Shown here: positions 798 to 22,420 of the stretch, one piece after another
Numbering within the stretch: the first letter of the stretch is position 1
Layout: every line of letters begins with the position of its first letter
Source: a virus
Reading direction: 5' to 3' (one strand)
DNA: 24,598 bases
Virus record (IMG/VR): IMGVR_UViG_3300042988_000097
Location: 1 to 24,598 of that record
Notes under the pieces: generated by a model
Database searches by the model: none
The model's input: only the letters and a program-made list of their open reading frames with translations
What the model was told of the DNA's origin: nothing
Made by a program: the position numbers and the translations under genes

Positions 798-813
798 TTA
801 TTTCCTTTTATTA

Positions 814-1194: not shown

Positions 1195-1202
1195 TTAATT
1201 CC

Positions 1203-2786: not shown

Positions 2787-2817
2787 TAGTTTCTCCATTA
2801 GATTATTAAATATTGTT

Positions 2818-3439: not shown

Positions 3440-3728
3440 CATCTTCCTCTTCTTGTGGAGGAAGCTTAACGTTGGTCTCTCGTATACTTACATCGAATCC
3501 AAATGTCTCCAATAAACTTACGAACACCTCCTCTGCATCCCATGATTCTGAAGAATAACAATGTGCGTGTGGAATAAGTTCCATAATCACAACGTTATCT
3601 AAACGTACAATAGCTCCCTCTGCGTATGAAGGGCCACACATATCACATTCATATTGATCGTATAGCCATTCAATCTCTAGCTGTGGTCTGGGAGCGTCCA
3701 CATCACTGGCTTCTGGCATATTCTCCAT
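3420..3728 (-). CDS. Acidic hypothetical protein
   Basis: Encodes about 102 aa. Features visible: a possible metal site ECDMCGP, a sequence with His and Cys (IPHAHCYSSESW), and a strongly acidic tail (QEEEDDDEDVQ). The acidic tail recalls phage proteins that contact DNA-binding partners, but that is only a resemblance. The frame also offers starts at 3746 and 3719; none has a strong ribosome site. The beginning lies inside the 3' end of the homing endonuclease gene. No family recognised. Confidence 0.65.
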   Translation of the reverse strand: MENMPEASDVDAPRPQLEIEWLYDQYECDMCGPSYAEGAIVRLDNVVIMELIPHAHCYSSESWDAEEVFVSLLETFGFDVSIRETNVKLPPQEEEDDDEDVQ

Positions 3729-4191
3729 GGTATTTTTCTCGTGCATAATCAGCTACTAAAGTGGCAAGTTCTAAATCATCAAAACAGCCAAGTGATTTGT
3801 ATCTACCGTTAATAGTCATTCTTACATTGTATTTATTTGTATCAGCCCTAAAGAAAACATTTTTTACACCAGTGTTTGAATCCTGATGGGCTTTTATGTT
3901 TAACATATTCAAACGACGTGAAGAGATGCGTAGATTATTATATCTATTATCTTTCCTATCCATATTAATATGATCGACGTCTGATTCGGGATAGATATTA
4001 TCTACATATAAGAATACTAATCGGTGAGCAGGGTAAGCAACGTTATCAATAGTGATGTAAGTATAACCTGCAACATTGTAACCTGCTATTTCACCTTTCT
4101 TTTTAGTACCTGCATTTTTATTACGAATAAAACAACCCGAATCAGGGTCATACGTTAAATACTCTTTTAATTTCTCTTGTGTTAATGTCAT
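3703..4191 (-). CDS. HNH homing endonuclease with AP2 DNA-binding domain
   Basis: About 162 aa. The N-terminal part (MTLTQEKLKEYLTYDPDSG, then RNKNAGTKKKGEIAGY) and the HNH core (AHRLVFLYV, SDVDHINMDRKDNRYNNLR) are those of HNH_3-type phage homing endonucleases. The C-terminal part, GVKNVFFRADTNKYNVRMTI followed by YKSLGCFDDLELATLVADYA, is an AP2 DNA-binding domain. Such genes nick a related phage genome next to their own insertion point and so spread. It overlaps the end of the exonuclease gene by 44 nt (56 nt if the ATG at 4203 is used) and contains the start of the downstream acidic gene, so it appears wedged between two genes. Ribosome sites for both possible starts are weak. Confidence 0.9.
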   Translation of the reverse strand: MTLTQEKLKEYLTYDPDSGCFIRNKNAGTKKKGEIAGYNVAGYTYITIDNVAYPAHRLVFLYVDNIYPESDVDHINMDRKDNRYNNLRISSRRLNMLNIKAHQDSNTGVKNVFFRADTNKYNVRMTINGRYKSLGCFDDLELATLVADYAREKYHGEYARSQ

Positions 4192-5002
4192 ACCAATCTT
4201 CATAATTTACATTAGGAGGGTTCCACATAAGAATTTCAGAACCATTGGTTCTTTTAATCATATGTAGTAATCTAGCTTGTTCAAGAAGCTCTTCTTCATA
4301 TGAATTAGGGAAGAGTTCTCGATACATACCTAATACTTGATTATAGGCATCTTCTCGACATGAGATATTACAAAGAGAGTCAAACGCTGTTTTAGGGCCA
4401 GCTTTCGGGATTCCAGGTATTGAGTCCACAGGGTCTCCCATAATCAACTGAGCATAGAAAAACTTCTCTCCCTCGCCAGTTAATTTTTTATTGTCTTCAG
4501 AGATTCTAATATCTCCAAATGAGTCAACCAACATCGGGCCTCGTTGGGCTTGATTCCCAAGCTCCCACGAATACTTCCATCCGCTGAATCCGAATAGGTC
4601 TTTATCACGGGTGCATATGATGGTTTCGTGTGGTCGGCTGGTCTGCTCGATAGACATAAGGTCATCTGCTTCCATTCCTTCTGACACTCTAACGTCATAC
4701 TTAGCTTTCAAATATGCTGTAATATTTTTGAAATGCCAAGGCTTATTACCTGCTCGTTGTTTATACGGGGTACGCTTGGCTATATCAAACCTGAAGTTTG
4801 TACTTCCTGTGAGATATAATATAGGCTCTGCTATCATGCTTTCTGGTACAGCTTGTGAGGCTATTGCATTGATGTTTCCTATTCGATTATCTAGCAGTTC
4901 AGCCACATAATCGAAAGGAGGGAAACCAGCGTGTTGCCAGCCAGTTTCCGCAGCAAATCCTATTTCATATCGAAGCACATCAGCGTCGATAAGGCATTGC
5001 AT
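4148..5002 (-). CDS. 5'-3' exonuclease (T7 gp6-like, FEN family)
   Basis: A 284-aa 5'-nuclease. The acidic metal sites are present: LIDADVL (Asp6, Asp8), EADD (111-114), TRDKDL (Asp133, Asp135) and GDPVDSIPG (Asp190, Asp193), followed by a helix-hairpin-helix GIPKAGPKTA (197-206). This matches flap endonuclease/T7 gp6 proteins that remove RNA primers and degrade host DNA. T7 gp6 is about 300 aa, so the gene looks full length. Its ATG overlaps the stop of the SSB-like gene as TAATG (5002), a coupling junction. The C-terminal codons are shared with the beginning of the homing endonuclease gene, so the last residues may have been altered by that insertion. Confidence 0.92.
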   Translation of the reverse strand: MQCLIDADVLRYEIGFAAETGWQHAGFPPFDYVAELLDNRIGNINAIASQAVPESMIAEPILYLTGSTNFRFDIAKRTPYKQRAGNKPWHFKNITAYLKAKYDVRVSEGMEADDLMSIEQTSRPHETIICTRDKDLFGFSGWKYSWELGNQAQRGPMLVDSFGDIRISEDNKKLTGEGEKFFYAQLIMGDPVDSIPGIPKAGPKTAFDSLCNISCREDAYNQVLGMYRELFPNSYEEELLEQARLLHMIKRTNGSEILMWNPPNVNYEDWYDINTREIKRVFNV

Positions 5003-5712
5003 TAGAAGGGGTTGTTATCACCATCACCCTCATCAGCTGCTGCTGGTTCAGGCTTCTTAGCTTCAGCTTTCTTAGCTGGAGCACTACGAGGACGATCACC
5101 ACCACCTTCAAGAGCTTGTTCCAAAGGACTACCCTTGAAGTTTAGATTGCTCTTGATCTTGTCACGCAACCACTCAGGGAGTGCATTGAAGACTTCCAGA
5201 TCGGGGTTATCCAAGTCAAACAACTTAGCAGGATTGACCAGTTCGGGGCATTTGTCAGCGTCACGAGGACGCATAGCAGAGATAGTTGCAATGTTGTCAT
5301 ATACCTTATCACCAACTGCGTTATTCACAATGGTTACGTTGATTGGTGTACCAATAGCCTTAGCGAAGTCACCGTCAAACTCGCCTGATGGATCAAGAGC
5401 ATTGTAACGCTGTGTGCTCTTAGCCTTGTCTGCATACAAACCGTAGAAGGGAAGAGTCTCGGAAATCCAACGAGGCTTATCTTCCAATTCCTTACCATCT
5501 TCGTCAAGCATGAATGTGTCAACCAATTCGTATGTCAACATAATCTCTTGAGCTGGAGGCTTATCCTTACCTTGATAAGGACGTTGTGCTTGCAAACCTA
5601 GGTCAATGATTTGTACCAGTCGTGCTGGATATGTACCTGGCTCGATGTTCGCTTGAGGAACACGATTGCCACCACCATTACCACCGCCTACTTTCTTAGC
5701 ATTCAAACCCAT
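5002..5712 (-). CDS. SSB-like DNA-binding protein with acidic C-terminal tip
   Basis: A 236-aa protein. It opens with a glycine-rich segment (KKVGGGNGGGN), has a beta-rich core (GTYPARLVQIIDLGLQ, EIMLTYELVD), and ends with a Pro/Ala/Lys linker and the tip DEGDGDNNPF. An acidic tail ending in Pro-Phe is the hallmark of single-stranded DNA-binding proteins, used by T7 gp2.5 and bacterial SSB to contact polymerase and helicase. The position between exonuclease and polymerase supports this role. The core belongs to a phage family often annotated only as hypothetical, so ssDNA binding is inference from tail and context. A strong AAAGGA site precedes the ATG at 5712. Confidence 0.75.
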   Translation of the reverse strand: MGLNAKKVGGGNGGGNRVPQANIEPGTYPARLVQIIDLGLQAQRPYQGKDKPPAQEIMLTYELVDTFMLDEDGKELEDKPRWISETLPFYGLYADKAKSTQRYNALDPSGEFDGDFAKAIGTPINVTIVNNAVGDKVYDNIATISAMRPRDADKCPELVNPAKLFDLDNPDLEVFNALPEWLRDKIKSNLNFKGSPLEQALEGGGDRPRSAPAKKAEAKKPEPAAADEGDGDNNPF

Positions 5713-5741
5713 AGTATTTCCTTTCGATTTAATTAATTAAT

Positions 5742-5969
5742 TTATTGTGCTGGATAGTGACGAACAAATCGTACATCACCCATTGGATAGATATGTGTCT
5801 CACCGTCATGTGTCACAACAGCAATAACATCGTTACCGACTTGGTAGCCGATAATATTCTCGTACACTTTAACATCTTCAACAAAGCTGCCTGAATCAAC
5901 ATCATACTCTGAATATTCTGTTTTGAATGTCAATTCAATGTTGTACGGGATTTTTTCTTGATCGTTCAT
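5742..5969 (-). CDS. Hypothetical protein (75 aa)
   Basis: A small acidic, beta-rich protein (MNDQEKIPYNIELTFKTEYS to RHYPAQ) between the polymerase and SSB-like genes. The frame stays open upstream into the polymerase 3' end, but the ATG at 5969, 10 nt after the polymerase stop and behind a purine run AAGAAAG, gives the natural start. No domain recognised. Its location suggests an accessory replication role. Confidence 0.7.
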   Translation of the reverse strand: MNDQEKIPYNIELTFKTEYSEYDVDSGSFVEDVKVYENIIGYQVGNDVIAVVTHDGETHIYPMGDVRFVRHYPAQ

Positions 5970-5979
5970 ATTTTCTTTC

Positions 5980-7881
5980 TTAGTGAATGTCGTACCAATT
6001 ACGACCGATTGCGCCCTCACCTGCATGAGGACATTTGATATTGAAGTATTCGCCAGCTAGACGAATAGCGTCTTCAGAGATGCGTTTAACATCGTCTGCA
6101 ATTTCTTTTCTACATTCGATTGTATACTCGTCGTGATACCAACAGACTACACCGTAATCTTTACCCCAGACGTACTTCTTTTCAAGTTCTGCACACAAGA
6201 TGCAGTAGGCTTTAGCCATATGAATGGCTTCGTCTGATTGTAATAGATAAACGAGAATCTGATGTTCAGATGGTACAGTGATGGGTCTACCATCTAAGCC
6301 TGTAATCTTACCATTAAAGTATTCCATTCGATTAAACTTAGCATTAAATCTTTGTCGTGCTGTTGCCTTCCATTCTAACGTAAGTCTTTCCATAAGCTCA
6401 CCGAGTCCATCAAGTCCCCTGTAAAGCTTATCCCTAAGCTCGGCTCCTGTCCCTTGAGGCTTCTTAGCAGTCTTAGCAAGTTTTGCATCTCCTCCTCCGA
6501 AGAGCAGGCAATACATAACGTTCTTTGCAATATCTCGGGACTCAAGGTCGCCAGCTTTTTGTGTGAGTGTGTGAGGATCAGTGCCATCTTCTTTATTTCC
6601 GCTAGTCATAGCAAAGATGTACTGCGGATTATTCATCCTAGCAGCGAGTTGTCGAAGTTGATTACCTGCTGAGTCGGTGCCAACGAGAACATAACCTTCA
6701 TTGGAGGTGAAGATCTGTCGCATTTGCTTTCCATAGAAGGAAGAGGCTTTAGGTATGTTGACAATATTTCTGTGCGTAGCTCGTCCAGTGACTGCAAGAG
6801 TATTGACGACACTTGATATGCGTCCATCTTCTCGAATAAGTCCGAATAGTCCCTCAATAACTGAACGCCTCTGCCTGCATTGCACTCGTCGTGCGACAAG
6901 AGCGCCAAGCTTTGACTCAATTCCTTCAAATGGATCGTCTTTAGATAGTTTAGGACTTGTTCTTTCTCCGTCATCGTTTGTGTTCCATTCTAGTGGTTCC
7001 CATCCTAATTGTAATAAAAAGTCTTTAGTCTCGGAGTTTGAGTTTAAGTCAGTTACGCGGAAGCTAATACGGCTAAAGCAACCAGAAATGGGCTTAGTGC
7101 TAATGTCAACATTATTCCTGTCACACCAATCAACCACGCTTTGCGAATACTCACCTGATTTGAGGAAAGGTTTTCGTATGTAATTATATTCTCCATTCTT
7201 TTTAGTTTCTTCAATTTCAAGAACTTGAGGAAGACGAGGTGTAATAACCTTATCAATCCGTTCAATCCACTTCGTCAGTTGACGAATACAGAATGTCATA
7301 TGTTCTTGATCTACTTTCCAGCCGTACTGTTCTTGTTGTTGCAGTCTGGTGAATAACTCAAACGACAACAGAAACGCATTACGCCAGTTACTCCCATTTG
7401 CTTCTTCCATTAACGCATCGTACACCAGCTCAGTAATTTCTACGTCTTCTGAGTTACGATGGAGCATAGCTTCTGAGAAGTTCTCCCAGTCGTCATGCTC
7501 AGGCTTACCTCTACCAACTCGATAACCCCACGATTCTAGTGAATGAGGGCCAGCTTTCTTGTTAGGGCAATTGAATGGAACAAGCCTGTTAGGATTCAAT
7601 AAGCGAGACATGATGAGCGTGTCAACAATCTTACCTTTGAACTCCCAACCGTACAACTTCTTCAATAAAGGGAAGTCATATCCAATTCCGTTATGAGCAA
7701 TCAGTACGTCAAACGTATCCAAATGCTCTAGGAACTCTTTAACGAAGTCTTCACCACTTAGGGGCGAGAACTTGTGCATAGCACCTTTATAAGCCTTTAC
7801 AGACCCACAGTGCATCTTAGTAGCTTCACGAAGTAATCCGTTAGCTTCTATGTCAAATATGCCAATGTTTAACTTACTCAT
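5980..7881 (-). CDS. DNA polymerase I-type (family A, T7 gp5-like) with 3'-5' exonuclease
   Basis: A 633-aa replicative polymerase. The proofreading exonuclease motifs are intact: FDIEANG (Asp10, Glu12), AHNGIGYDFP (Asp69) and HRNSEDVEIT (Asp146). Polymerase motif A is GTDSAGNQLRQL (Asp403), motif B is RDIAKNVMYCLLFGG (Arg449, Lys453, Tyr457, spaced exactly as in T7), and motif C is YHDEY (His583, Asp584, Glu585). It is shorter than T7 gp5 (704 aa); whether the thioredoxin-binding insertion is missing needs an alignment. Its ATG overlaps the sigma-factor stop (ATGA, 7878-7881). It acts with the downstream SSB-like protein and exonuclease and the upstream primase-helicase. Confidence 0.96.
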   Translation of the reverse strand: MSKLNIGIFDIEANGLLREATKMHCGSVKAYKGAMHKFSPLSGEDFVKEFLEHLDTFDVLIAHNGIGYDFPLLKKLYGWEFKGKIVDTLIMSRLLNPNRLVPFNCPNKKAGPHSLESWGYRVGRGKPEHDDWENFSEAMLHRNSEDVEITELVYDALMEEANGSNWRNAFLLSFELFTRLQQQEQYGWKVDQEHMTFCIRQLTKWIERIDKVITPRLPQVLEIEETKKNGEYNYIRKPFLKSGEYSQSVVDWCDRNNVDISTKPISGCFSRISFRVTDLNSNSETKDFLLQLGWEPLEWNTNDDGERTSPKLSKDDPFEGIESKLGALVARRVQCRQRRSVIEGLFGLIREDGRISSVVNTLAVTGRATHRNIVNIPKASSFYGKQMRQIFTSNEGYVLVGTDSAGNQLRQLAARMNNPQYIFAMTSGNKEDGTDPHTLTQKAGDLESRDIAKNVMYCLLFGGGDAKLAKTAKKPQGTGAELRDKLYRGLDGLGELMERLTLEWKATARQRFNAKFNRMEYFNGKITGLDGRPITVPSEHQILVYLLQSDEAIHMAKAYCILCAELEKKYVWGKDYGVVCWYHDEYTIECRKEIADDVKRISEDAIRLAGEYFNIKCPHAGEGAIGRNWYDIH

Positions 7882-8351
7882 TCACGGTACAAATCCTTTA
7901 GCTCGTTTCGGAATCGTTGAATAATCTGATGATTACGTTTGTATGGGAACTCAGTGATATGAGTAATATCAAGAGCTGAATATCCTTGCTTGAAATATAA
8001 CGTAAGCACTTCGATCTGATCAGCACTCTTGGTGTCAATCAACTCAAAGATCTCACGCATAATACTTTCAGGATAACTAGGACACTCCATAGTCTCTTGA
8101 TCTTCGTCATCTAGTTCAACGTAGATGAACCCCTTCTCAGCGTTCTTATAATCACGCAGGGCGTTATTAAGAAGCATAGAGAACCATTGATTAAAGCGTT
8201 CTGGGTCACACGAACGTCGGTAACGAATAGCACGTTCATAAGCTGTTTGAACAACATCTTCACCAGCTTCGGGGGAGCCAGCTCGGAATGTCATTTTCTT
8301 GACGAGCTTCTGACGATTATCCAAATAATGTTGTTCAATTAGTTTAAGCAT
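7878..8351 (-). CDS. ECF-like RNA polymerase sigma factor
   Basis: A 157-aa protein with the two-domain plan of ECF sigma factors. Region 2 covers about residues 20-75: SPEAGEDVVQTAYERAIRY followed by FNQWFSMLLNNALRDYKN. Region 4 covers about 105-155: EVLTLYFKQGYSALDITHIT then KRNHQIIQRFRNELKD, a helix-turn-helix. phiEco32 encodes a sigma factor of this kind (gp36) that redirects host RNA polymerase to phage middle and late promoters. The gene is coupled on both sides: its ATG overlaps the helicase stop (TAATG at 8351) and its stop overlaps the polymerase ATG. Which promoters it reads is unknown. Confidence 0.8.
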   Translation of the reverse strand: MLKLIEQHYLDNRQKLVKKMTFRAGSPEAGEDVVQTAYERAIRYRRSCDPERFNQWFSMLLNNALRDYKNAEKGFIYVELDDEDQETMECPSYPESIMREIFELIDTKSADQIEVLTLYFKQGYSALDITHITEFPYKRNHQIIQRFRNELKDLYRE

Positions 8352-10009
8352 TACACAATCTCGTTAAATAGTCCTGTTGCTGCATCCCAATACAGCTTGT
8401 ATCGTCCTGTCTCACCGAATTCTCGGTCTTCTAGTAATACTAGAGTTCTAAGATTTCGTTCTTCAGGTCGTAAGTTAGGATCTCGATTTCCTTCAAGTCC
8501 GAGCATGAGGTTACACGAACGAGCCATAGCACGAGAGCCAGCAAACTGAGAGGAAAGAACTTCACCACCTCGCTCGTGAGGCGGGCCAGAATCAGGATTC
8601 CTAAGGTGACAAAAAATAAAAATAACGACGTTAAGATCAAGGGCCATAGCAGAAAGCTCTTGAGCGATTTCTTGAAGTTTGACGTTTGCACTAGCTGCGT
8701 CCATTCCGTTAGTTAAGTTTGTGATTGGGTCGATAATAATCGCTTTACATCCTTCAGCAGCAGCTGCACGAATGTCACCCTTGAGTGTGTCAAACCCTAC
8801 GTGTTGATACAAGTTCAACATATAGAGATGATCATCTAACACTTTACCAGCTTCGTCATAAGCTTTCTCATCGAACTCCTTAGTAGGGTCGTGAAAGAAC
8901 TTACCGACTAGCTTACCTGCCACGAGTTTATAGGTTTTCTTGTTGCTCTCTTCAGGTTTAACAAGAAATACTTTCCATCCGTGTTCTTTGATAAAATGTG
9001 CTGCAAGGGTGTTAACGATCTCCGACTTACCTTGCTTCTGCCCTGCACCAATATATATGGTTTCCCCGAGACGAATCCCTCGTGTTGCCTTAGTAATGTG
9101 TTCCCATGGCCACGAGATACCGAATTGAGGTGGTTCCTTACCAGATTCGTGTAAATCATTCCCAGATACCAGTCGAGTATTCTTCGGCTTCTGGGCGTTA
9201 AACTGGCAGGCGTTATAACACGCTTTAGAACGACCGTCGATAAGGCACTGATTTGCGTCTTTGGATGGGAGAGCTGCAACCATCGCATCAGGGGCAATAC
9301 GTAGTACATCTTCTACCGCTTTCTTTCCAGGTTCATCGTTATCGAATACAAGGATAATTTCTTTAAAGACTTTACGAATCTCAGGGAGCATCTTAGCGAA
9401 TTGCTTAGACGCACCACCAGACCCGTTACTAAGAGATACAACGGCAGGATTGTAGTCTGCATATTGCGTACCCTTATTGTGTTCTTTAAAGATTTGGAAC
9501 AGAGCTACTGCATCACATTCTCCCTCTGTAATGAACAGCTTCTTACCACCAGTCTGAATAGCTTGTTGCCATCCAAAGAAGTCAGCGTTCTTAGTAGAGC
9601 CTACGGCCCACATACGCTTGTTCTCAATCAGTCGTACCTTGTAGCCAATCAACTGTTCACCGTTATGATACGGATAGTAGTGAGTGACTGGGGTTACACC
9701 GTCAGTCTCAGATACACCAATCTTAATACCAAAGTATTCGAGATACTCTTTCTTAAGTTTACGATCAGGAAGATCAACTGTTTTATAGGTTGATACTTCC
9801 TTGATCTCAGCTTCAACTTGTTCAGGAGATTTAGTTAACGCTGTTGGTTTATAGTCTTCAGGTTTATCATGGTAAGGGTCTGGTACATACGTTCCACAAG
9901 AGAAGCAGAAACCGTCATACTTACCATCTTCACGAAGGAAGACTTGCAAACCTGAAGCTGAGTTACATTTATCTGTACGGTGTGGTAGTTTTTCTACACA
10001 CTTAGCCAA
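8351..10009 (-). CDS. DNA primase-helicase (T7 gp4-like)
   Basis: A 552-aa bifunctional protein. At the N terminus a zinc site (His10, Cys15, CFSC at 35-38) recognises primer templates. A TOPRIM primase core follows: LFITEGECDA (Glu162) and LVFDNDEPG (Asp223, Asp225). The C-terminal DnaB/RecA-type helicase has Walker A GAGQKQGKSE (321-330), Walker B AIIIDP (Asp427) and FCHLRNP (His468). The start codon is TTG at 10009, supported by AGGAG six bases upstream and by MAKCVEKLPHRTDKC matching the family N terminus; there is no usable ATG. It overlaps the preceding small gene by 8 nt. Confidence 0.95.
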   Translation of the reverse strand: MAKCVEKLPHRTDKCNSASGLQVFLREDGKYDGFCFSCGTYVPDPYHDKPEDYKPTALTKSPEQVEAEIKEVSTYKTVDLPDRKLKKEYLEYFGIKIGVSETDGVTPVTHYYPYHNGEQLIGYKVRLIENKRMWAVGSTKNADFFGWQQAIQTGGKKLFITEGECDAVALFQIFKEHNKGTQYADYNPAVVSLSNGSGGASKQFAKMLPEIRKVFKEIILVFDNDEPGKKAVEDVLRIAPDAMVAALPSKDANQCLIDGRSKACYNACQFNAQKPKNTRLVSGNDLHESGKEPPQFGISWPWEHITKATRGIRLGETIYIGAGQKQGKSEIVNTLAAHFIKEHGWKVFLVKPEESNKKTYKLVAGKLVGKFFHDPTKEFDEKAYDEAGKVLDDHLYMLNLYQHVGFDTLKGDIRAAAAEGCKAIIIDPITNLTNGMDAASANVKLQEIAQELSAMALDLNVVIFIFCHLRNPDSGPPHERGGEVLSSQFAGSRAMARSCNLMLGLEGNRDPNLRPEERNLRTLVLLEDREFGETGRYKLYWDAATGLFNEIV

Positions 10010-10658: not shown

Positions 10659-11402
10659 TTACTCGAATTTGAGGAACTGTTCGACATATTTCTCCAATGT
10701 TGTACCAAATAATCCTGGGGCTGTGTTAATTTCTAATACAAAATACTTATTTTGCTTAGCATTATAGACCATATCAACAGCACCGAAGTCAAGATTCAGA
10801 GCAGCAATAGCTGCCACTGCACTCTGTTCAGCAATAGGCGGAAGTTGAACATCTTGATTAGCATAGTTGAAACCATTAGCATGATTACGTACTTGCCAGT
10901 TCACATCATCATCAGGTACATCAAACCGTCGTTTCTTCTCTTGAATAAAGAATACTTGACCTCTCATTACATGGAGACGATACTCCTTCACCTTAGGGAT
11001 GTATCGTGTATATAATGGTACGTCAGGCAATACACTACCTTTACCGTGTAATGTAATACCCTCACCACTATGTCCACGAAGCTTAGCACGAGCAACAACA
11101 CAAGCCTTGTCTGTATCAAGCCATGATTCAGCAACAGCTTTGTTAGTTGTATACTCTGGAATGTCAACGAAGTCTTGCAATGCTCGGAATGTTTCCAGCT
11201 TATTAGATGCACGATTAACAGCCTCAAAGCTATTCACTAGCTTGTCTGCGTTAATCTGCCGTTTAACTGAAGAATTACCCCAGTTAATCAGCATACCACG
11301 AACACGTAAGGGCTTACCCTCCTTACGTACTCGCTTAACACCTAACGCATCAGCTAAGGCTTTAGCTGACCCGCTATACATCTTATATGGTAAGATTTTC
11401 AT
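10659..11402 (-). CDS. ATP-grasp domain ligase (cluster copy 1)
   Basis: A 247-aa ATP-grasp protein. Visible elements: a nucleotide-binding strand and glycine loop VVARAKLRGHSGEG (102-115), KEYRLHV (Glu140, Arg142), and the metal-binding end DFGAVDMVY (Asp210) and VLEINTAPGL (Glu224, Asn226). ATP-grasp enzymes make an acyl-phosphate and couple a carboxylate to an amine. It is a clear paralogue of the second ATP-grasp at 15306-15998: both begin MKI, share an INWG/INYG segment and then TFR plus IPE(Y/F)T. Its ATG overlaps the amidoligase stop (ATGA, 11399-11402). Comparative genomics by Iyer and colleagues (2009) described such phage clusters as peptide-modifying systems. The substrate is unknown. 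Confidence 0.88.
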   Translation of the reverse strand: MKILPYKMYSGSAKALADALGVKRVRKEGKPLRVRGMLINWGNSSVKRQINADKLVNSFEAVNRASNKLETFRALQDFVDIPEYTTNKAVAESWLDTDKACVVARAKLRGHSGEGITLHGKGSVLPDVPLYTRYIPKVKEYRLHVMRGQVFFIQEKKRRFDVPDDDVNWQVRNHANGFNYANQDVQLPPIAEQSAVAAIAALNLDFGAVDMVYNAKQNKYFVLEINTAPGLFGTTLEKYVEQFLKFE

Positions 11403-12526
11403 TCACGTGCCTCTCTTTCGTTATGAGCTTCACGAATCTCCTTAGAGACAAGGAATCTTTGAAGTGTACGATCTGCCATTGGAATGATGTTTTGCTGTGG
11501 AATATTCTCAGCCCATTCTAGATTAGTTAGATCGTACTCATCAATCTCATCTGCAATAATTGCATGAGCACCTTGACCAAACACCTCTACTACTGGGTTA
11601 ACGGCCACAACAGCATGGTTCCATAGAACTGGATCATTAAAGTTTACTTGACCTGCAGCAAGCTCTTGAATTCTCTGCCGTTTTACCTTAGGCTTGACTT
11701 CTTCTTTTTGAATCTTAACTTCCCTAAACATATAGGGAAGGTCAAGAGACAATGAGAAGTTTGTACGCATATCATTAGTCTCATTCTCGTAAGAGAAGAA
11801 ACGATATACGTCACCTAATACCATCTCAAGGAACTTAGATGGTGGTGTATTCACAAACAGATCGTGAATCTTACGTGGGTCAGCATATTGCTGTGAGAAT
11901 TCACGCAGGTTATACAGAGCTTTCAACCAGATACGAATGTAGTCTGGATTGATATTACCTGCCATGCCACGGAATTCAACACTACCGTATCGAGCTGTTG
12001 CTGCTAGGTTAATTGCTGCATACTTCAATTCTTCCATGTTTAGATGGTGAATGAATCGTGCAGGGTCAGAGAACAATTGACCAATCGAATTGATAATGAA
12101 GTCAGCATCACGAAGACGTAGACAGAAACGATTACCAATACGCTCATCACCACAATAGCGAATCAAAGATTCTTCGATGATATAGTACGTATACACTAAG
12201 TTTAGATAGTGATGTACGTGCATATCTAGAACATTCATGTGAACGTGAACGCTAGTACGGAAAGAGAAATCAAACTTAGCTCTGGTAGCATTGCCATGTT
12301 TGATCAAATCCATGATAGCGGCAATGCTGTCGTCTAGAGAAAGAGGCTTTCTAAGTACATACTCTGAACGACCATGCGGATATTCGCCACGTAGAGAACC
12401 GTCATCACACTGATTCCAAGCAGTGCCAGGAGGCAGTAGAGGAAGACGCTCACCCTCACATTCGATTTCGATACCGAAGTCACCATTCTTACGGCCCTTA
12501 GCCAAAAGTTCGTACAGTTTTGTCAT
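11399..12526 (-). CDS. Amidoligase (glutamine-synthetase-fold COOH-NH2 ligase)
   Basis: A 375-aa protein with the motifs of the putative amidoligase family (PF12224): FGIEIECEG (Glu20, Glu22), DDGSLRGEY (41-49), SEYVLRKPL (Glu55), RTSVHVHMNV (His94, His96, Asn98) and GSVEFRGMAGN (Glu184, Arg186). These correspond to the metal- and ATP-binding residues of the glutamine synthetase fold. Family members are predicted to join a carboxylate to an amine at ATP cost. A basic stretch (KPKVKRQR) and a long C-terminal extension follow the catalytic domain. The ATG at 12526 overlaps the upstream gene by 29 nt and has no clear ribosome site, so translation is probably coupled. Confidence 0.85.
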   Translation of the reverse strand: MTKLYELLAKGRKNGDFGIEIECEGERLPLLPPGTAWNQCDDGSLRGEYPHGRSEYVLRKPLSLDDSIAAIMDLIKHGNATRAKFDFSFRTSVHVHMNVLDMHVHHYLNLVYTYYIIEESLIRYCGDERIGNRFCLRLRDADFIINSIGQLFSDPARFIHHLNMEELKYAAINLAATARYGSVEFRGMAGNINPDYIRIWLKALYNLREFSQQYADPRKIHDLFVNTPPSKFLEMVLGDVYRFFSYENETNDMRTNFSLSLDLPYMFREVKIQKEEVKPKVKRQRIQELAAGQVNFNDPVLWNHAVVAVNPVVEVFGQGAHAIIADEIDEYDLTNLEWAENIPQQNIIPMADRTLQRFLVSKEIREAHNEREARE

Positions 12527-13112
12527 AGTTTGGATTTAACAAGAGTTCAAGATGTTCTTTACCTTCGTTGAATGTAATACGATTTGTACTACGAGCAAGC
12601 TTAGGCAAGCTACCTACGCGATCCATTTTGTAATAGACGTTGCGTTCTTTATCAATAGCAAATTGACGGTCAAAGGCACAGCAACCCTTGGTGTTAGCTG
12701 CAATCTTAGCTGCCATTTGTAATGATGGATACTGACCAGTGATTGTGTTATGCCAATCCTTAGTACGCATATTATTGATGTTATCGCAAGCATCACGATA
12801 ACGACGATAATCGTTAGGCTGTGGGCCTACGTGCTGAATGATTGTGTTAGTACGGGTAATACCCACACTAAAGCGACGGGCTGGACGACGAGCTGCGTAG
12901 AAAACGAAACCATCCGAATTGACAAAACCTAACCGAGTCTTCAAGGATTTGAATTTGTCGAAGTCAAACTTAACGACAGCTTCTTTACCATGTTCTAAGT
13001 TAAGGATACGCATATTTCGTCCAGCCTTAATCACTTTAACTGGATGACCATCGTACATACAAACACTGTCAGCATATAGCTGAACAATATCGTGTTCACT
13101 AAGCTCAGGCAT
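12498..13112 (-). CDS. Unknown protein of the ligase cluster (204 aa)
   Basis: The frame is open to 13217, but the ATG at 13112 has GAGG at a good distance and gives MPELSEHDIVQLYADSVCMY as N terminus, overlapping the previous gene by only 8 nt. The protein is basic, with an RRPARRFSVGITRTN segment, then DNINNMRTKDWHNTI and AKIAANTKGCCAFDRQFAID. No domain recognised. It lies between the two COOH-NH2 ligases, so it is probably a partner, a carrier or a substrate-recognition protein, but that rests on position only. Confidence 0.75.
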   Translation of the reverse strand: MPELSEHDIVQLYADSVCMYDGHPVKVIKAGRNMRILNLEHGKEAVVKFDFDKFKSLKTRLGFVNSDGFVFYAARRPARRFSVGITRTNTIIQHVGPQPNDYRRYRDACDNINNMRTKDWHNTITGQYPSLQMAAKIAANTKGCCAFDRQFAIDKERNVYYKMDRVGSLPKLARSTNRITFNEGKEHLELLLNPNYDKTVRTFG

Positions 13113-13896
13113 AACACACCTCAATCTTCTCTGCTTCAATAATCTTCTGGGCTGCTTTCTTATCGCTAGTGTTGATGATTTCTTGAATATCACCATACTT
13201 AGCGAACAAAGCCTCACCCTTCATCAGACGATTCATACCGTCGATTGTGTTACGATACACCCAACGCATCAGTGTCTCACTCTTGAGCCAAGCATTAGAC
13301 AGAGTACGATACTCCATACCGTATGGCTTATAGCGGCAGCAACCTGCCTTACCATACATTTCTCGTCGTTGCGTATCGTTGTCGTACATCAAACTAGGTA
13401 AAGCAAGCATAAAGTCCATCTGCTTTGCAACATCGTTACACATAGCGACATGACCACCATCTTGTGTGTCTTTATCGTTAGTCCATCCGATATGAACATG
13501 ACCTGATGCTGTACGCATTGGTCGATTAGCATTAGGCTTTACGTTAGCCAGTCCAGTCCAGCCATTGTAATCTGGGTCACAGCCCAGTTCCAATGCAGCT
13601 TCTGGCTGTGTCTTCATGTATTCAGCATCGAAGTGAGCAACAGGAACAGCAACAACTTCATACTCAGGAACCATTAGTTTCATAGTATTGAATACGTGTT
13701 GCACGTTAATGCAAAACTCATTCTCATCACGAGCAGGGTCAATATTGAATTCAAGGGCCATACCGTCAACTTGGACAGCGCCCTTATCCACCTTCATCGG
13801 ATGTTTTTTATCGCCTTTAATGAGGCCATACGCTGATTTAAACACACCATTTTGTTTGACGAACACTTCAGGATCGCAACCTACGAGAATTTCCAT
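13105..13896 (-). CDS. phiEco32-like COOH-NH2 ligase type 2
   Basis: A 263-aa protein matching the phage COOH.NH2 ligase type 2 family (PF14395), named from phiEco32. Motifs in order: GCDPEVFV (Asp8, Glu10), KGAVQVDGMALEFNI (Asp44, Glu49), SGHVHIGW (His133, His135) and YGMEYRTLSN (Glu195, Arg197). These mirror the glutamate, histidine and arginine positions of the glutamine synthetase fold and of the amidoligase next door, though overall sequence is quite different. Predicted to form an amide or isopeptide bond using ATP. A GAGG site precedes the ATG. It starts 16 nt after the class II amidotransferase and overlaps the next gene by 8 nt. Confidence 0.9.
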   Translation of the reverse strand: MEILVGCDPEVFVKQNGVFKSAYGLIKGDKKHPMKVDKGAVQVDGMALEFNIDPARDENEFCINVQHVFNTMKLMVPEYEVVAVPVAHFDAEYMKTQPEAALELGCDPDYNGWTGLANVKPNANRPMRTASGHVHIGWTNDKDTQDGGHVAMCNDVAKQMDFMLALPSLMYDNDTQRREMYGKAGCCRYKPYGMEYRTLSNAWLKSETLMRWVYRNTIDGMNRLMKGEALFAKYGDIQEIINTSDKKAAQKIIEAEKIEVCYA

Positions 13897-13912
13897 TTTA
13901 CTACCTCTTTAA

Positions 13913-15286
13913 TTAAATTGCATTGACGGACACTTTAATAAAGCTACTCACCTCAGAATCAAGGGAACAGCTGTGGCAGACGCATTGACCTTCGGTAGTC
14001 AAGATATGCTTGTCTGTGGGTAGGACAGCGGAACCGCACCAAACGCAGTCACCGTATGCACCTATCCAGTCGTTGTAAGAGAGTTGTTGTTTCTTGTGAC
14101 CTAAGTACGTAGTGAAGTCACCACCCACAGGATCACCATCCTCATCCCCTACCAGTTCAACGGAATGTACAGCTACTTTGTAATAGCTGCCAGTTACATC
14201 ATCAAGGACTAGACCGTTAATGTCAGCCGTGATGGTTTCGTTGATATATTTGCTAGTATCAATGTTCTGATTACAATAGAAACGAATTGAATAACTCGGA
14301 TTATGTTCATCAAAACAAATCAAATAGCGGCTTCCTTTGTGGTCTATATCCTCAGCAAGAACTTCAAGTAACACGCCCTTTAAGTGTGAGTAACCAGCGT
14401 TTAAACTCCGCGACAGATGCTTCTGAGCCTCGTTTTGACTTGCTTCGGTTGTTTTGGGAACCACCCTTAACTTTCCCGCTGGCGCAGTGTAGCTGGATTG
14501 CTGTTGCTGTACTCGTGTATAATCAGCCGTACCATGGTTCTGTGAAGTACTTGTTGGAGTATAGGTCGTAGTTGTGAACGACTTTCCCGTTGATGGCGTG
14601 TAACGAATATGCGTCTTGTCCATCTCTCCAGTCTTGCTGATCTTAGTAGTATACAGACGATCTTCAGCCAACAGCATTGGCTTAGTGAACTCCAGATTGT
14701 TACGGCCTAATGCGCCTTCAATCATCCATGCCTCAGATGCCCAATACATCTTCTTACCATCGGGTGAATGAGATAGATACAATGTACGCTCTTTGTTACG
14801 AAGCAGGTTGATTGTCTCATTCTCCTTGTCCCACCACACTAAAGCCCAAGCACCTAACACAACCTTCATCAGGTCATCAAAGCCCTTAGTCTCCATGTGA
14901 TGGTACAAATTCTCACTATCGACTGTGTAGTCACGGGCATCAGCAAGTTGCCACTTGTTAGTAAGTGTACCGTTGTGAGCACCGATAAGAGTATCAAACT
15001 CATAAGGGTGAGCATTACGATCGTTCACTGCACCTTGTGTTGCATAACGATTGTGACCGATAATAGCGCGTTGAAAGCCAATGAACGCTTTGTCGTATGA
15101 CTTACGATCCATCAATCGGAATGGGTCGCCAATACCTTTCGTGATATGATGACCAGCATCACCTCGATGGATAACAGCTACGCCTGTACTATCTACACCG
15201 CGTACTGAATCCATGATAAGCATATTATGAAATGCTTTCTCATCTTGCGGTGTTAATACACCTGCCATGCCTACGTGTCCACACAT
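13913..15286 (-). CDS. Class II glutamine amidotransferase with C-terminal zinc motif
   Basis: A 457-aa protein. Starting at the ATG at 15286 (GAGG upstream) gives MCGHVGMAG, exposing Cys2 as the N-terminal nucleophile after Met removal. Other class II (Ntn-hydrolase) residues are present: GHNRYATQG (Arg80), NAHPYE (His93), GAHNGTL (Asn105, Gly106) and TVDSENLY (Asp123). The domain releases ammonia from glutamine, or acts as an amidohydrolase. After about residue 230 there is a Thr/Ser/Gln-rich linker and a long unassigned part, ending with a zinc-ribbon-like CVWC (414-417) and CHSC (437-440). In this cluster it probably supplies ammonia to, or trims the product of, the COOH-NH2 ligases. The longer frame to 15334 has no matching family sequence. 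Confidence 0.9.
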   Translation of the reverse strand: MCGHVGMAGVLTPQDEKAFHNMLIMDSVRGVDSTGVAVIHRGDAGHHITKGIGDPFRLMDRKSYDKAFIGFQRAIIGHNRYATQGAVNDRNAHPYEFDTLIGAHNGTLTNKWQLADARDYTVDSENLYHHMETKGFDDLMKVVLGAWALVWWDKENETINLLRNKERTLYLSHSPDGKKMYWASEAWMIEGALGRNNLEFTKPMLLAEDRLYTTKISKTGEMDKTHIRYTPSTGKSFTTTTYTPTSTSQNHGTADYTRVQQQQSSYTAPAGKLRVVPKTTEASQNEAQKHLSRSLNAGYSHLKGVLLEVLAEDIDHKGSRYLICFDEHNPSYSIRFYCNQNIDTSKYINETITADINGLVLDDVTGSYYKVAVHSVELVGDEDGDPVGGDFTTYLGHKKQQLSYNDWIGAYGDCVWCGSAVLPTDKHILTTEGQCVCHSCSLDSEVSSFIKVSVNAI

Positions 15287-15305
15287 TTGAGTTACCTCGC
15301 TCGAT

Positions 15306-15998
15306 TTAGTTAAAGAATTTCTTGAAGGCTTCAATAGCCTCGTCAGTAATGATTGGGCCTGAGTTAGCCTCTAGAATCTTGAAGTCTTTGCGTGTATTAG
15401 CTACAACATCAAAGCCTACAAAACCCATATTCAAAGCCTTAGCAGCTTTCTCACATTGCTCAATTATTTCATTGAATCCTCGCAGTTGTAGTTTAACCAA
15501 GTCCCAGTTGTTCTCGTCATCAAGAACCTTGGAGTAGATACCAATGACTTTGTTATTGAATACGAGTACACGGTATTCCTTCTTGTGAAAGAAATACTCA
15601 GTGTACACATACGCATCTAGCAAGTCACTAGGATAACGATACTCAATACCCTCGTTCTTACGACCATCACGTTTAGTGTGGCATACTACTAAATTATCCT
15701 TGTCCCATTTCTCTGCAATAGCCTTACGGTCAGTGAACTCAGGAATAGATAATCCAGCAGCTTCCAATGTACGAAATGTCAACAGCTTGTTAATACAATA
15801 ACGTGTATCAATCTGACTGTTAAACTCTTTAGTACGTTGATGGCGATTGTATTCGCGACATCCGTAGTTAATAATCAGCTTAACGTGTTCACCGTATGGA
15901 TACACCTCTTTGTAAGGGTTATACATACGAATACCAAGAGCATTAGACAGTTGTGTAGCGCTCTCTCTACACGCTTTAGGTGCAAGAATGATTTTCAT
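15306..15998 (-). CDS. ATP-grasp domain ligase (cluster copy 2)
   Basis: A 230-aa ATP-grasp protein with VVCHTKRDGRKNEG (104-117), KEYRVLVF (Glu141, Arg143), GFVGFDVV (Asp197) and KILEANSGP (Glu210, Asn212). It is paralogous to copy 1: same N-terminal plan (MKIILAPKACRESATQLSNA against MKILPYKMYSGSAKALADAL), a TFR segment and IPEFT. The glycine loop differs (RDGRKNEG against RGHSGEG), suggesting a different acceptor. The start is 2 nt after the stop of the 44-aa proline-rich gene and lacks a clear ribosome site, so it depends on translation of that small gene. Confidence 0.87.
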   Translation of the reverse strand: MKIILAPKACRESATQLSNALGIRMYNPYKEVYPYGEHVKLIINYGCREYNRHQRTKEFNSQIDTRYCINKLLTFRTLEAAGLSIPEFTDRKAIAEKWDKDNLVVCHTKRDGRKNEGIEYRYPSDLLDAYVYTEYFFHKKEYRVLVFNNKVIGIYSKVLDDENNWDLVKLQLRGFNEIIEQCEKAAKALNMGFVGFDVVANTRKDFKILEANSGPIITDEAIEAFKKFFN

Positions 15999-16000
15999 AT

Positions 16001-16135
16001 TTACATCAGGGCTGGTGGAATCTTATCACGCTGTTGTTTCTCATAAGCAACAATTTGCTCAGGAGTCCAAGGCTTGGGTGGATTAGTCGCTGGAAAGGGC
16101 CAGCTTGGGACAGGAGGATTGGCGGGTGCTATCAT
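16001..16135 (-). CDS. Small proline-rich peptide (44 aa)
   Basis: A 44-codon frame beginning MIAPANPPVPSWPFPATNPP and continuing KPWTPEQIVAYEKQQRDKI. AAGGAA sits upstream of the ATG, and the frame exactly fills the space between the 53-aa membrane-protein gene (12 nt away) and the second ATP-grasp gene (2 nt away). About a quarter of the residues are proline, with lysines only in the second half. It has no recognisable domain. Its place inside the ligase cluster makes it a candidate substrate or adaptor peptide; that is speculation. The packing and ribosome site make it likely to be translated. Confidence 0.65.
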   Translation of the reverse strand: MIAPANPPVPSWPFPATNPPKPWTPEQIVAYEKQQRDKIPPALM

Positions 16136-16147
16136 GCTTTTATTTCC

Positions 16148-16309
16148 TTACAACAAAACAAACCAAGCGAAATGAATCAGAGATACTGAACACATGACTC
16201 GACCAAGCAAACCAATAGCCCAATACCCATCTGATTCTTCAAATATACCACGAGTTGCGTTATGTATATATTCAGCCCACATCAGCAACAGTCCACAGAT
16301 AAACACCAT
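16148..16309 (-). CDS. Small membrane protein (53 aa)
   Basis: The ATG at 16309 has a perfect AGGAG six bases upstream and gives MVFICGLLLMWAEYIHNATR, a hydrophobic first segment, a short charged middle (FEESDGYW), and a second hydrophobic segment GLLGRVMCSVSLIHFAWFVL. Two membrane helices are likely. The frame is open upstream to 16411, inside the neighbouring gene, but that part is a shadow. Function unknown; it could anchor the modification cluster at the inner membrane or serve lysis, but nothing in the sequence decides. Confidence 0.7.
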   Translation of the reverse strand: MVFICGLLLMWAEYIHNATRGIFEESDGYWAIGLLGRVMCSVSLIHFAWFVLL

Positions 16310-16319
16310 GATGTTCTCC

Positions 16320-16985
16320 TTAACAGCACTCACACATAGGGACTTTCTTAGCTTCAACAGCCTTGAAAGAATGTTTAAAGTAACGCTCAAGTAGGCTCTT
16401 GAAGTAATCAAACATACCTGTATACGCTACACCTACAAACTCAGGGTGTGGTTGGAAGCAAAGACACTTCGTATCCTCATACCATACCACCTCAACATCC
16501 TCTTGAGACGTATCTCGATTGAATACTGTGTGATCCCACCACACTCGTTCACCACGAAGGCCAGCAGAAGCCACTAGAACGCCCTCAGGGGAGGGTTTCA
16601 TCATCTGGTGATGGGTAGATGACACTAGCACCACTTCGCCCGTTACAAGGTCTGTAATTTCATGGTCACCACAATGGTATGTAACATCCTGATACATCTC
16701 ACCGCCTGACATTACATTAAGGAACTGACCACCACGACAGATACCAACCATAGGAATCTCTAGCTGTAACGCAATAGAGAATACATCTGCTTCGTATCGG
16801 TCACGTGCTTCGTTGTTAAATGTTGTGTTGTGCTTCCGTGCTCCATACAAATCAGGAGACACATCTTCACCACCTGTGAATACAACCAGGTCAGCTTCCT
16901 CAATCTTTCGTGTAGTGTAATAACCAATACGATTGAACAAACCCTCGTATGCTCCACCACCATTCACAATGTATACGTGTTTCAT
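16320..16985 (-). CDS. Class I glutamine amidotransferase / C26 peptidase-like hydrolase
   Basis: A 221-aa protein with the class I amidotransferase triad: GICRGGQFLNV (Cys83) and FQPHPEF (His180, Glu182). FTGGEDVSPDLYG followed by RDRYE resembles the gamma-glutamyl hydrolase/PuuD branch (peptidase C26), which cleaves gamma-glutamyl or isopeptide bonds. In phage COOH-NH2 ligase clusters such an enzyme could remove or edit the ligated group. The C-terminal end is cysteine-rich (VPMCECC), which is unusual and might bind metal. Its ATG overlaps the upstream gene stop (ATGA) and has AAAGGA before it. Confidence 0.87.
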   Translation of the reverse strand: MKHVYIVNGGGAYEGLFNRIGYYTTRKIEEADLVVFTGGEDVSPDLYGARKHNTTFNNEARDRYEADVFSIALQLEIPMVGICRGGQFLNVMSGGEMYQDVTYHCGDHEITDLVTGEVVLVSSTHHQMMKPSPEGVLVASAGLRGERVWWDHTVFNRDTSQEDVEVVWYEDTKCLCFQPHPEFVGVAYTGMFDYFKSLLERYFKHSFKAVEAKKVPMCECC

Positions 16986-18025
16986 TTGATTTCCTTTGAA
17001 AGAATGTTAGCCAATACAATGTCAGCGTCAGCGCCTTTGATTTCAGGATACTTGTTGATGATGTTATTACCACCCCAACCCTTCTCGACTTTGAGTTCGT
17101 TAGGCTTGAAGAATGACAATACCTTAGCAAAGACTGTGCCTTTAATCTTCTCATCCTTAATATCGCCATACATACTGATGCCTTCGGCAATACTAGCCCA
17201 TACTTCATATCCATAGCCAGGCGATTGATTATACGGCTTACCCTTAGTCTTGAACATATCTTCATTGAAGAATGAGACTAGTTGTGTATAATCCATACGA
17301 CGATGGATAATATCGTGACCACAGCCTTCACGAGACATTAGATAACTGTTACCGTTAGACATACATGATGCAGCAAACGCTACATTAGGACTGTACTTAA
17401 GTTTCAGTAAACGAATGAACGTAGCTAGACGAGTAGGGAATTCACTAGCTTGACGCATAGCAATACACGCACCCACTAGAATATTCTTAGGTACATCTGT
17501 CTTAAGATAGACACCACTATCTAGCATCTCAGGTTTGAATGGTTCTTCAAATGCAATACGCCAAGGACTTTCGTTACAGATGTACGAATAGAAGGCAATC
17601 AAATCTTTACGATTACCGCTGACTTCATCACCTTTCTGATAACCCTTCAACGCATTGAATACACGTGTTGGAAATTCACCAATCTCATTACGATTCCAAT
17701 TCAAACCAGCATGACATGGAGCCATAGCATGGAAAGAACGACGACCAGTATTGAATTCATAAGCAAATGAACACGTACCAATATTACCTGCCATCTTCTT
17801 AATCAATTCCTCACCTAGTGTCATCTTAACAATAGGTTTAGGAGCAGGTTTAACTACACGATAAGGTGTAACAAAAGCCTGATCTGGTGCAATCTTAAAC
17901 ATATTGCAATCAAAAGGATGACGTAATCCTTTTAGATAGGTATGCAATGGAGTCATTTTATCAACTTCATAACATCCACCATGCTGAAGATACTTGGATT
18001 TACGCCCAAGATAGAATACTTTCAT
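16982..18025 (-). CDS. Unknown protein at the head of the ligase cluster (347 aa)
   Basis: A 347-aa protein starting MKVFYLGRKSKYLQHGGCYE, behind AAAGGA. Notable segments are KIAPDQAFVTPYRVVKPAPK, NIGTCSFAYEFNTGRRSFHA, CIAMRQASEFPTRLATFIRL and SREGCGHDIIHRR. No catalytic family recognised, and no signal peptide or membrane segment seen. It is the first gene after a 134-bp gap and is coupled to the class I amidotransferase gene, so it belongs to the cluster by position. It could be a new enzyme, or the protein that is modified. Confidence 0.8.
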   Translation of the reverse strand: MKVFYLGRKSKYLQHGGCYEVDKMTPLHTYLKGLRHPFDCNMFKIAPDQAFVTPYRVVKPAPKPIVKMTLGEELIKKMAGNIGTCSFAYEFNTGRRSFHAMAPCHAGLNWNRNEIGEFPTRVFNALKGYQKGDEVSGNRKDLIAFYSYICNESPWRIAFEEPFKPEMLDSGVYLKTDVPKNILVGACIAMRQASEFPTRLATFIRLLKLKYSPNVAFAASCMSNGNSYLMSREGCGHDIIHRRMDYTQLVSFFNEDMFKTKGKPYNQSPGYGYEVWASIAEGISMYGDIKDEKIKGTVFAKVLSFFKPNELKVEKGWGGNNIINKYPEIKGADADIVLANILSKEIK

Positions 18026-21418: not shown

Positions 21419-22420
21419 ATGAGTAAGATTGTCTTAAATGACGTTACGAATCTGAATACTCTTAGTGTTATCAACGACAACTTTGATAAGATTGAACTAG
21501 AGTTTCAAAATAAAGCTCTCTACAGGAATAATCCAGATGGTGAGCCTAATGCTTTACAGAACGATATTGATGCTAACGGTAATAGCATTTATAACGTACA
21601 AGATTTAACCATCCAGGGCGGATTTACTGTTGATGGTCAAGACGTAGGTGAGTATATTGGTCAAGCTGCTGATGCTGCTGCTGATGCTTTAGCTAGTGCT
21701 ACAGCTGCTGCTAACAGTGCGACAGCTGCTGGAGCTAGTGCTTCTAGTGCTGCAACTTCTGCAACATCAGCTGCTTCTAGCGCATCTACAGCCACCACTA
21801 AGGCTAGCGAAGCCAGTACGTCTGCAACTAATGCAGCTAGCTCTGCTACAGCTGCTGCAAGCTCTGCTTCAACAGCTACAACACAAGCAGGCATTGCTAC
21901 AACAAAAGCTAGCGAAGCAAGCACATCAGCTTCTAATGCTGCTACATCTGAAACTAATGCTGCTGCTTCTGCAAGCACAGCAACCACACAAGCTGGTATT
22001 GCAACTACTAAGGCAAGTGAAGCTGCTGCTTCTGCCGCTGCTGCATTAGTCAGTGAGACAGCTGCCGCAGGATATGCAGCTAGTATTGATCCTGCTACAG
22101 TTGTTCGTAAGGACAGCGATACAGGGGCTGCTCAGCTTCCAGCTGGTACGACAGGTGAACGTCCTACAGGCGCTACAGGTAAGATTCGTGCTAACACAAC
22201 ATTGAATAAGTTTGAAGGCTACATCAATGGTGCATGGGGATCTATTGGTGGTGGTGCTACTGGTGGTGGTGCTGATGATATTTTTATTGAGAATGGTCAG
22301 ACAGTAACACAGAGCTACACTATTACGTCTGGAAAGAATGCTGGTTCATTTGGCCCTATTAGTATTGCTAACGGTGCTACAGTGACAATTCCTTCTGGCT
22401 CTGTCTGGACTATTGTTTAA
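21419..22420 (+). CDS. Tail fibre protein with Ala/Ser/Thr repeats
   Basis: A 333-aa protein. The N-terminal part ([20 protein letters not shown], then [20 protein letters not shown]) is of the kind that attaches fibres in podovirus-like tails. Residues about 82-220 are almost only Ala, Ser and Thr and contain a 35-residue repeat: KASEA recurs at residues 128, 163 and 198, with [11 protein letters not shown] before the later two. This is probably a trimeric coiled-coil shaft. The C-terminal tail ([20 protein letters not shown], then [15 protein letters not shown]) is a small beta module seen at the end of many phage fibre proteins. The ribosome site is weak (GAAAGA). Confidence 0.85.

Follow-up and report, generated by a model that had tools for sequence, protein, structure and literature searches.

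We analysed a stretch of 24,598 nucleotides, called the window in the following, from the IMG/VR virus record IMGVR_UViG_3300042988_000097. This 24.6-kb viral contig is partial and covers the early region around a cluster of genes that are predicted to make and break amide bonds. The cluster genes, designated A to J, are all encoded on the minus strand within positions 10659-18025 and are arranged head to tail, with adjoining or overlapping ends (Table 1). An amide ligase/hydrolase cluster had originally been proposed at this position from the DNA sequence alone, and its existence is confirmed. Profile searches against Pfam and PHROG bear out all six of the proposed enzyme families, namely a Peptidase_C26 hydrolase (C26, gene B), a class II glutamine amidotransferase (GATase, gene F), a COOH-NH2 ligase (gene G), an amidoligase (gene I), and two ATP-grasp ligases (genes E and J).

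The visible catalytic motifs are intact, as had been stated. Gene B carries the catalytic Cys83 in the motif GICRG and the His and Glu residues in FQPHPE, which together make up the Cys-His-Glu triad of PF07722. Its closest solved structures are 3fij (Lin1909) and 7d4r ('probable glutamine amidotransferase'). Gene F begins with MCGHVG, which places the cysteine at the N-terminus once the methionine is removed, and it is matched by GATase_6 (PF13522). The C-terminal extension of this protein bears CxxC pairs, and the Pfam search finds no second domain in its 458 residues, neither a synthetase nor an isomerase domain. Gene G scores 31.8 bits against PF14395 (cut-off 25), and 21 of its residues are invariant in an alignment across 14 phages. 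Gene I scores 21.6 bits against PF12224 (Amidoligase_2) and thus is 0.4 bits short of the curated cut-off of 22. For genes J and E, the Pfam ATP-grasp models match below their cut-offs; the sequences show the metal-binding ExN motifs LEIN and LEAN.

Table 1. Genes of the amide ligase/hydrolase cluster in the window and the adjacent primase-helicase gene.
Feature	Position	Strand	Assignment	Evidence
Gene A	16982..18025	-	347-aa protein without assigned function, first gene of the module	phrog_34254, E 7e-16
Gene B	16320..16985	-	Class I GATase-fold Peptidase_C26, gamma-glutamyl hydrolase-like	PF07722, E 7e-21
gC	16148..16309	-	53-aa membrane-like open reading frame (ORF), lineage-specific	no Pfam/PHROG match
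gD	16001..16135	-	44-aa Pro-rich ORF (MIAPANPPVPSWPFP...), lineage-specific	weak conservation
Gene E	15306..15998	-	Second ATP-grasp ligase, optional in the module	phrog_2599, E 1e-32
Gene F	13913..15286	-	Class II (N-terminal nucleophile, Ntn) glutamine amidotransferase	PF13522, E 3e-15; phrog_18128, E 2e-73
Gene G	13105..13896	-	phiEco32-type COOH-NH2 ligase, glutamine-synthetase-like fold family	PF14395, E 1e-7; phrog_3815, E 4e-95
Gene H	12498..13112	-	204-aa protein without assigned function	kept in 120/127 loci
Gene I	11399..12526	-	Amidoligase (PF12224-like)	PF12224, E 2e-4; phrog_7469 'amidoligase enzyme', E 6e-56
Gene J	10659..11402	-	RimK-like ATP-grasp ligase	phrog_2599, E 2e-77
Primase-helicase	8351..10009	-	DNA primase-helicase, constant neighbour on the downstream side; served as anchor and control	conserved order; common to LUZ24, CVT22 and O4

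Gene content was compared by running profiles from annotated relatives over every fetched locus. Among 127 distinct loci that bear gene G, gene F is present in 124, I in 121, H in 120 and J in 117. The genes travel together, as had been anticipated: the gene-neighbourhood comparison finds the same order recurring across related viral contigs, beyond what chance would give. Because F, G, H, I and J are kept across these loci and gC and gD are not, we define the module as eight genes, one of which, the second ATP-grasp (gene E), is optional. Two ATP-grasp copies per locus are found in 12 of 96 loci. From the original count of nine to ten genes, the enzymes and the two unassigned proteins A and H are thus retained, and the membrane ORF and the small peptide are removed. 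The membrane ORF gC was rejected as part of the module, since it has a single close relative (72% identity, in locus L047 and its copy L117); it matches no Pfam or PHROG profile. For gD, fragments of similarity occur in L021 and L022 only. Not being conserved, it is a weak candidate for the substrate of the module, a role suggested for it in the original prediction, and it was rejected as such. Graspetide-type clusters, for ribosomally synthesised and post-translationally modified peptides, would have a conserved gene for a precursor peptide next to the ligase; none was found. A 72-aa ORF of the LUZ24 gp20 type was considered as a carrier; it has 7 matches, is confined to the LUZ24/phiEco32 type and is therefore not general.

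In Zobellviridae-like contigs the core order A-B-[E]-F-G-H-I-J-primase is near-constant, and the position of the ATP-grasp is the chief variable. The modules of Citrobacter phage CVT22, of the Pseudomonas phages PA11, O4 and TC6, and of the Klebsiella phages Klyazma and Asterion, all Zobellviridae, have the gene order of the window. In four loci, J is enlarged to about 600-750 residues by a C-terminal extension (L555, 7594-9396; L485, 3944-5779; L478, 8692-10497; L014, 12445-14697), which in L555 resembles repeated small beta domains.

Amidoligase clusters of phiEco32-type phages were reportedly predicted by Iyer and colleagues in 2009. With a PF14395 ligase that is encoded together with an amidoligase, a class II GATase and an ATP-grasp in conserved order, the window carries a cluster of this type. 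The clusters of Kuravirus ES17, LUZ24, UFV-P2 and tf are alike in having the COOH-NH2 ligase, a protein of about 200 residues, the amidoligase, the class II GATase and an ATP-grasp by the primase (PMC3890496). They differ in being arranged as A-like pair-G-H-I-F-small ORF-J-GGCT-primase, with the A-like proteins upstream, a gamma-glutamyl cyclotransferase (GGCT) and no C26, whereas the window has A-B(C26)-E-F-G-H-I-J with two ATP-grasps. In papers on phages that carry the module, its genes have been listed without function (PMC6209634, PMC3890496, PMC4505115, PMC3517423), those of Zobellviridae singly (PMC4505115, PMC6209634).

Relatives of gene G were found in 312 of 50,697 phage records. They occur in Zobellviridae (PA11/O4/TC6, CVT22, Klyazma), in LUZ24-like phages, in phiEco32-like Kuravirus, in Lahexavirus and Dalianvirus, and additionally in a Rhizobium phage and a crAss-like phage. 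A total of 84,980 bacterial and archaeal species genomes yielded just 13 loci, every one on a contig of a metagenome-assembled genome. In most of these loci several genes of the module occur, and in six the primase-helicase of the phage is found as well. They resemble phage contigs that were binned with a host, and the module looks phage-owned.

The identity of the hydrolase is informative with respect to the chemistry. LUZ24 gp22 and its counterparts are gamma-glutamyl cyclotransferases of the GGACT family (PF06094, E 4e-20). In the set of 127 loci, 83 encode only C26, 20 encode C26 and GGCT, 9 encode only GGCT, and 15 encode neither. For 14 of these 15, the sequence upstream of G, where B would fall, is at most 3.05 kb long. 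The remaining one, L504, looks chimeric; its class II GATase frame (7749-9959) continues into apparent phage head-protein sequence, probably due to a chimeric assembly. When a module is considered assessable if its locus is neither cut short upstream of G nor chimeric, enzymes of the gamma-glutamyl-cleaving families (C26, GGCT or both) are represented in 112 of 112 assessable modules. This upholds the earlier notion of a cluster logic that pairs ligases with hydrolases. In L555 a GGCT (PF06094, E 1e-18) is located between A and F, which is the place of C26, and in L478 a GGCT directly precedes F. In Zobellviridae-type loci, GGCT occurs in all 4 without C26, compared to 20 of 103 with C26 (hypergeometric probability about 0.002, phylogeny ignored).

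As unrelated folds are swapped at one position, we argue that they share one reaction. Two known pathways provide the precedent: PuuD (a C26 enzyme) and BtrG (a GGCT) each strip a gamma-glutamyl group that has been placed by a ligase of the glutamine-synthetase (GS) fold or the ATP-grasp fold, PuuA in gamma-glutamyl-polyamine metabolism and BtrJ in butirosin biosynthesis. The exchange of C26 and GGCT narrows the candidate chemistry to gamma-glutamyl amides. The module probably makes and breaks amide bonds, likely gamma-glutamyl ones, and replacement by GGCT provides indirect support for cleavage of such amides by gene B. Unlike the Puu and Btr pathways, the phage module joins both ligase folds, and no dehydrogenase or acyltransferase was recognised in it.

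The original prediction missed a second feature, C-terminal tails ('tags') which are shared by small early proteins of related phages and which name specific candidate clients. They were noticed first in small ORFs between module genes. In each tagged locus, 5-17 otherwise unrelated small early proteins share one phage-specific tail, and the tags seen include LENE, LEND, LENK, FKGN, LEDWL and GDTEEDI. The tail LENE is found 17 times in CVT22 (L003, 2066-17313), LEND 14 times in Erwinia phage Pecta (L012, 1780-16411), LENK 12 times in Klebsiella phage Asterion (L018, 4213-17497), and MENE 6 times in oyster phage T2S1. About 13 proteins of Rhizobium phage RHph_I3_11 (L009, 1548-15244) end with GD[TR][ED][ED]DI; here the tail spans ten residues, [DN]Qx-GD[TR][ED][ED]DI, and its codons vary freely. 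The tagged proteins have 50-130 residues and are mutually unrelated within a phage. Their genes are interspersed with those of the module and also occur at other places of the early region, some of them near the polymerase. In the tagged loci that were examined the module enzymes are never tagged, and the structural half of CVT22 and of RHph_I3_11 contains no tagged genes. In CVT22 and Asterion, 12-17 small proteins encoded within or close to the module are tagged, whereas the window and O4 have none.

Tags were detected by clustering small genes per locus according to their five C-terminal residues. Tail clusters of 6-17 members were found in 14 of 112 module loci, with at most 3 members in every other locus. 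As a control, the same proteins were cut 6-21 residues upstream, which gave clusters of 1-3 members save for four values of at least 4; these came mostly from the Rhizobium phage, its tail being longer. With enlarged sampling, 17 of 127 loci were tagged at a cluster size of at least 5, and the tails KxDWL, LEDYM, EELI and ERLV were added. No tag family was present in 239 random viral contigs (2.0 Mb, largest tail cluster 2), and 66 loci without G had no tail cluster above 2. The window, in the early region that this partial contig covers, has no tag family either (tail cluster size 1).

Controls with 5-mers from inside the same proteins, with random contigs and with the opposite strand led us to reject chance as an explanation. 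The same applies to paralogue expansion, since the 19 tagged proteins of CVT22 fall into 19 separate homology groups; overall, 134 tagged proteins in 12 loci represent 106 groups. One group of 14 tagged bodies spans eight loci under different tags. In a tree of F, G and I, the tags occur in few clades, with 5 changes by Fitch parsimony. In one clade, 9 of 9 members have a tag, which drifts through LENE, LEND, LENK, MENE, LEENV and FKGN(K).

Of the two unassigned proteins, A may itself be catalytic, possibly a new Cys/His enzyme, because C104 and R191 are invariant and E195 and H237 near-invariant in an alignment of 53 relatives. The strands of its model (predicted local distance difference test, pLDDT, 81) are consistent with a small N-terminal beta-barrel, and the fold search found no PDB match. 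The model of H (pLDDT 94) has an SH3/PWWP-like N-terminal barrel plus one further domain, with weak SH3/PWWP matches only, and H is likely a non-catalytic partner. For both proteins, the fold searches gave no confident relative and no metabolic homologue. When a profile of the tagged domains was compared to 1051 long proteins from these loci, 91 of which are gene A, the top 15 matches were all gene A. These matches are mainly N-terminal and in untagged loci. A direct comparison of the tagged domains with gene A by hhalign gave 92%, over 16 columns only. Gene H was also considered as a sequence homologue of the tagged domains, and no match was obtained. The data are suggestive of a small domain that works with A, which some phages have fused to A and others as a free, tagged protein.

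With rather less than even confidence, we favour the reading that this is a conserved early module which makes and unmakes gamma-glutamyl-type amide bonds on protein acceptors, and that the tagged small proteins are its likely clients in related phages. The GS-fold ligases G and I and the RimK-like ATP-grasps J and E would use ATP to activate a carboxylate, which they would then couple to an amine. Ammonia (nitrogen) or a glutamyl group would be drawn from glutamine by the class II amidotransferase F. Gene B, or GGCT in other phages, would cleave the gamma-glutamyl bond, either as an eraser or in a deprotection step modelled on the Puu and butirosin pathways. Genes A and H may provide recognition or scaffold subunits. 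The acceptors would be proteins, in related phages small early proteins with the phage-specific tag, and the tag would be either the end that is modified or a docking label for the module.

Several points weigh against this reading. One of them is that many LEN* tails overlap the ribosome-binding site of the next gene. The GAG codon that is part of this site is used in 51 of 54 tails with a start after them, compared to 10 of 15 without. Where no start follows, the residues are kept and the codons shift, as in CTC GAA AAC GAT, which retains LEND without a ribosome-binding site, and in TTA GAA AAT AAA for LENK. Third or synonymous positions vary freely in the DWL/DWM and Rhizobium tails, and enzyme genes that directly precede other genes carry no tags. 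On these grounds the explanation of the tags as a mere ribosome-binding-site artefact was rejected. The EELI/ERLV tails (L478, L485, L555) are nearer to the ribosome-binding pattern and were given little weight. As the bodies stay conserved and the tag switches jointly in all small proteins of a phage, each phage most likely has a trans-acting reader of its tag, and tags most likely act at the protein level.

The remaining points concern the link between the tags and the module and the chemistry itself. The few tag origins mean that the link is not statistically independent. Most module phages, the window included, show no tag family, and the tags are therefore dispensable for the core chemistry. 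The random and primase-only control contigs are shorter on average than the module loci, and orphan small proteins may have unseen relatives. The link of the tagged domains to gene A is short, searches of solved structures give no homologue for G, A or H, and the gamma-glutamyl chemistry is proposed from homology and enzyme replacement.

A more far-reaching form of the favoured reading places the module at the centre of a system by which phages label or dock proteins. The enzymes or A/H would read the tag and conjugate or activate the clients, C26 or GGCT would reverse this, and the tag would change in concert. Untagged phages such as relatives of the window would have the small domain fused in cis to A. 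We regard this form as speculative and are inclined to doubt it.

The alternative that we take most seriously, while on balance not expecting it to hold, is that the tags are independent of amidoligase chemistry and co-present by descent, serving as a degradation signal, a capsid cargo peptide or another docking motif. Shared cargo tags are known from the capsid-targeting sequence of T4 and from encapsulin cargo peptides. This alternative would agree with the few origins and with tagged genes outside the module near the polymerase, and it is compatible with any of the chemistries considered here. However, it does not account for the absence of tags from the random contigs and the loci without G, for the gaps between module genes being filled by tagged genes, or for the tag-free structural halves of CVT22 and RHph_I3_11.

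We consider it unlikely that the RimK-like ligase and its partners favour the phage by adding residues to host proteins, e.g. ribosomal protein S6 or RNA polymerase. The family of J and E, phrog_2599, is annotated as 'ribosomal protein S6 glutaminyl transferase', and phage R2K ATP-grasps have been predicted as modifiers of host proteins (PMC4431377). However, the S6 label was assigned purely by similarity, a set of eight genes that are inherited together and include an eraser exceeds the needs of RimK, and tags on phage proteins would not be explained.

Bacterial class II GATases and ligases amidate cell-wall precursors, and the early-region position would suit superinfection exclusion. Alteration of host peptidoglycan or surface polymers that blocks superinfection is nevertheless improbable, as the module has no conserved membrane protein after exclusion of gC, the Pfam search finds no Mur-type ligase, phages of widely different hosts carry the module, and the shared tags are left unexplained. 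This role is the Iyer 2009 proposal for phiEco32, and it is repeated as a prediction in PMC10580990; the remark in the original prediction that no substrate has been shown for such clusters is consistent with this literature. Quite improbable is a small-molecule pathway in which C26 or GGCT would deprotect a gamma-glutamyl metabolite (amine, polyamine, nucleotide or amino-acid derivative) as in PuuA/PuuD or BtrJ/BtrG: no tailoring enzyme or transporter is conserved in the module, A and H are without metabolic homologue, and the tags are unexplained, even though the combination of GS fold and C26 follows the PuuA/PuuD logic and the solved relatives of gene B include 7d4r, 7d50 and 7d53 ('probable glutamine amidotransferase'), presumably the polyamine enzyme SpuA of P. 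aeruginosa.

In pupylation, the GS-fold ligase and deamidase PafA and Dop act with a small protein that is recognised by its C-terminal residues. The phage module is alike, by description, in having GS-fold ligases and, in tagged relatives only, small proteins with a putative C-terminal signal. It differs in its tags, which vary from phage to phage, are borne by many unrelated proteins and have E, D, K, N, V, L, M or I as the final residue. The module itself is known from Zobellviridae and from phages of the LUZ24-like and phiEco32-like groups. Two features look new, the exchange between C26 and GGCT and the families of tags. Shared tails are mentioned neither in the CVT22 and Klyazma papers nor in a wider literature search with Iyer 2009 outside its scope. 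The module predicted in 2009 thus gains two handles, a probable gamma-glutamyl chemistry and candidate clients, and the phage-specific tails in sequenced isolates such as CVT22 name at least 12 exact candidate client proteins, in CVT22 for instance gp51, gp55 and gp64. If the module does read the tags, it would represent a phage protein-labelling scheme with rapidly changing labels and a logic like that of pupylation or adaptor docking.

Other parts of the window were assessed by eye and from the gene order of relatives. As in other Zobellviridae, positions 1-8351 contain apparent genes for a class II ribonucleotide reductase, a sigma factor, an exonuclease and DNA polymerase A, and for MazG-like, metallophosphoesterase, ThyX, DUF3310-like and HNH proteins. 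On the plus strand, positions 21419-22420 encode a tail-fibre-like protein with long Ala/Ser/Thr repeats.

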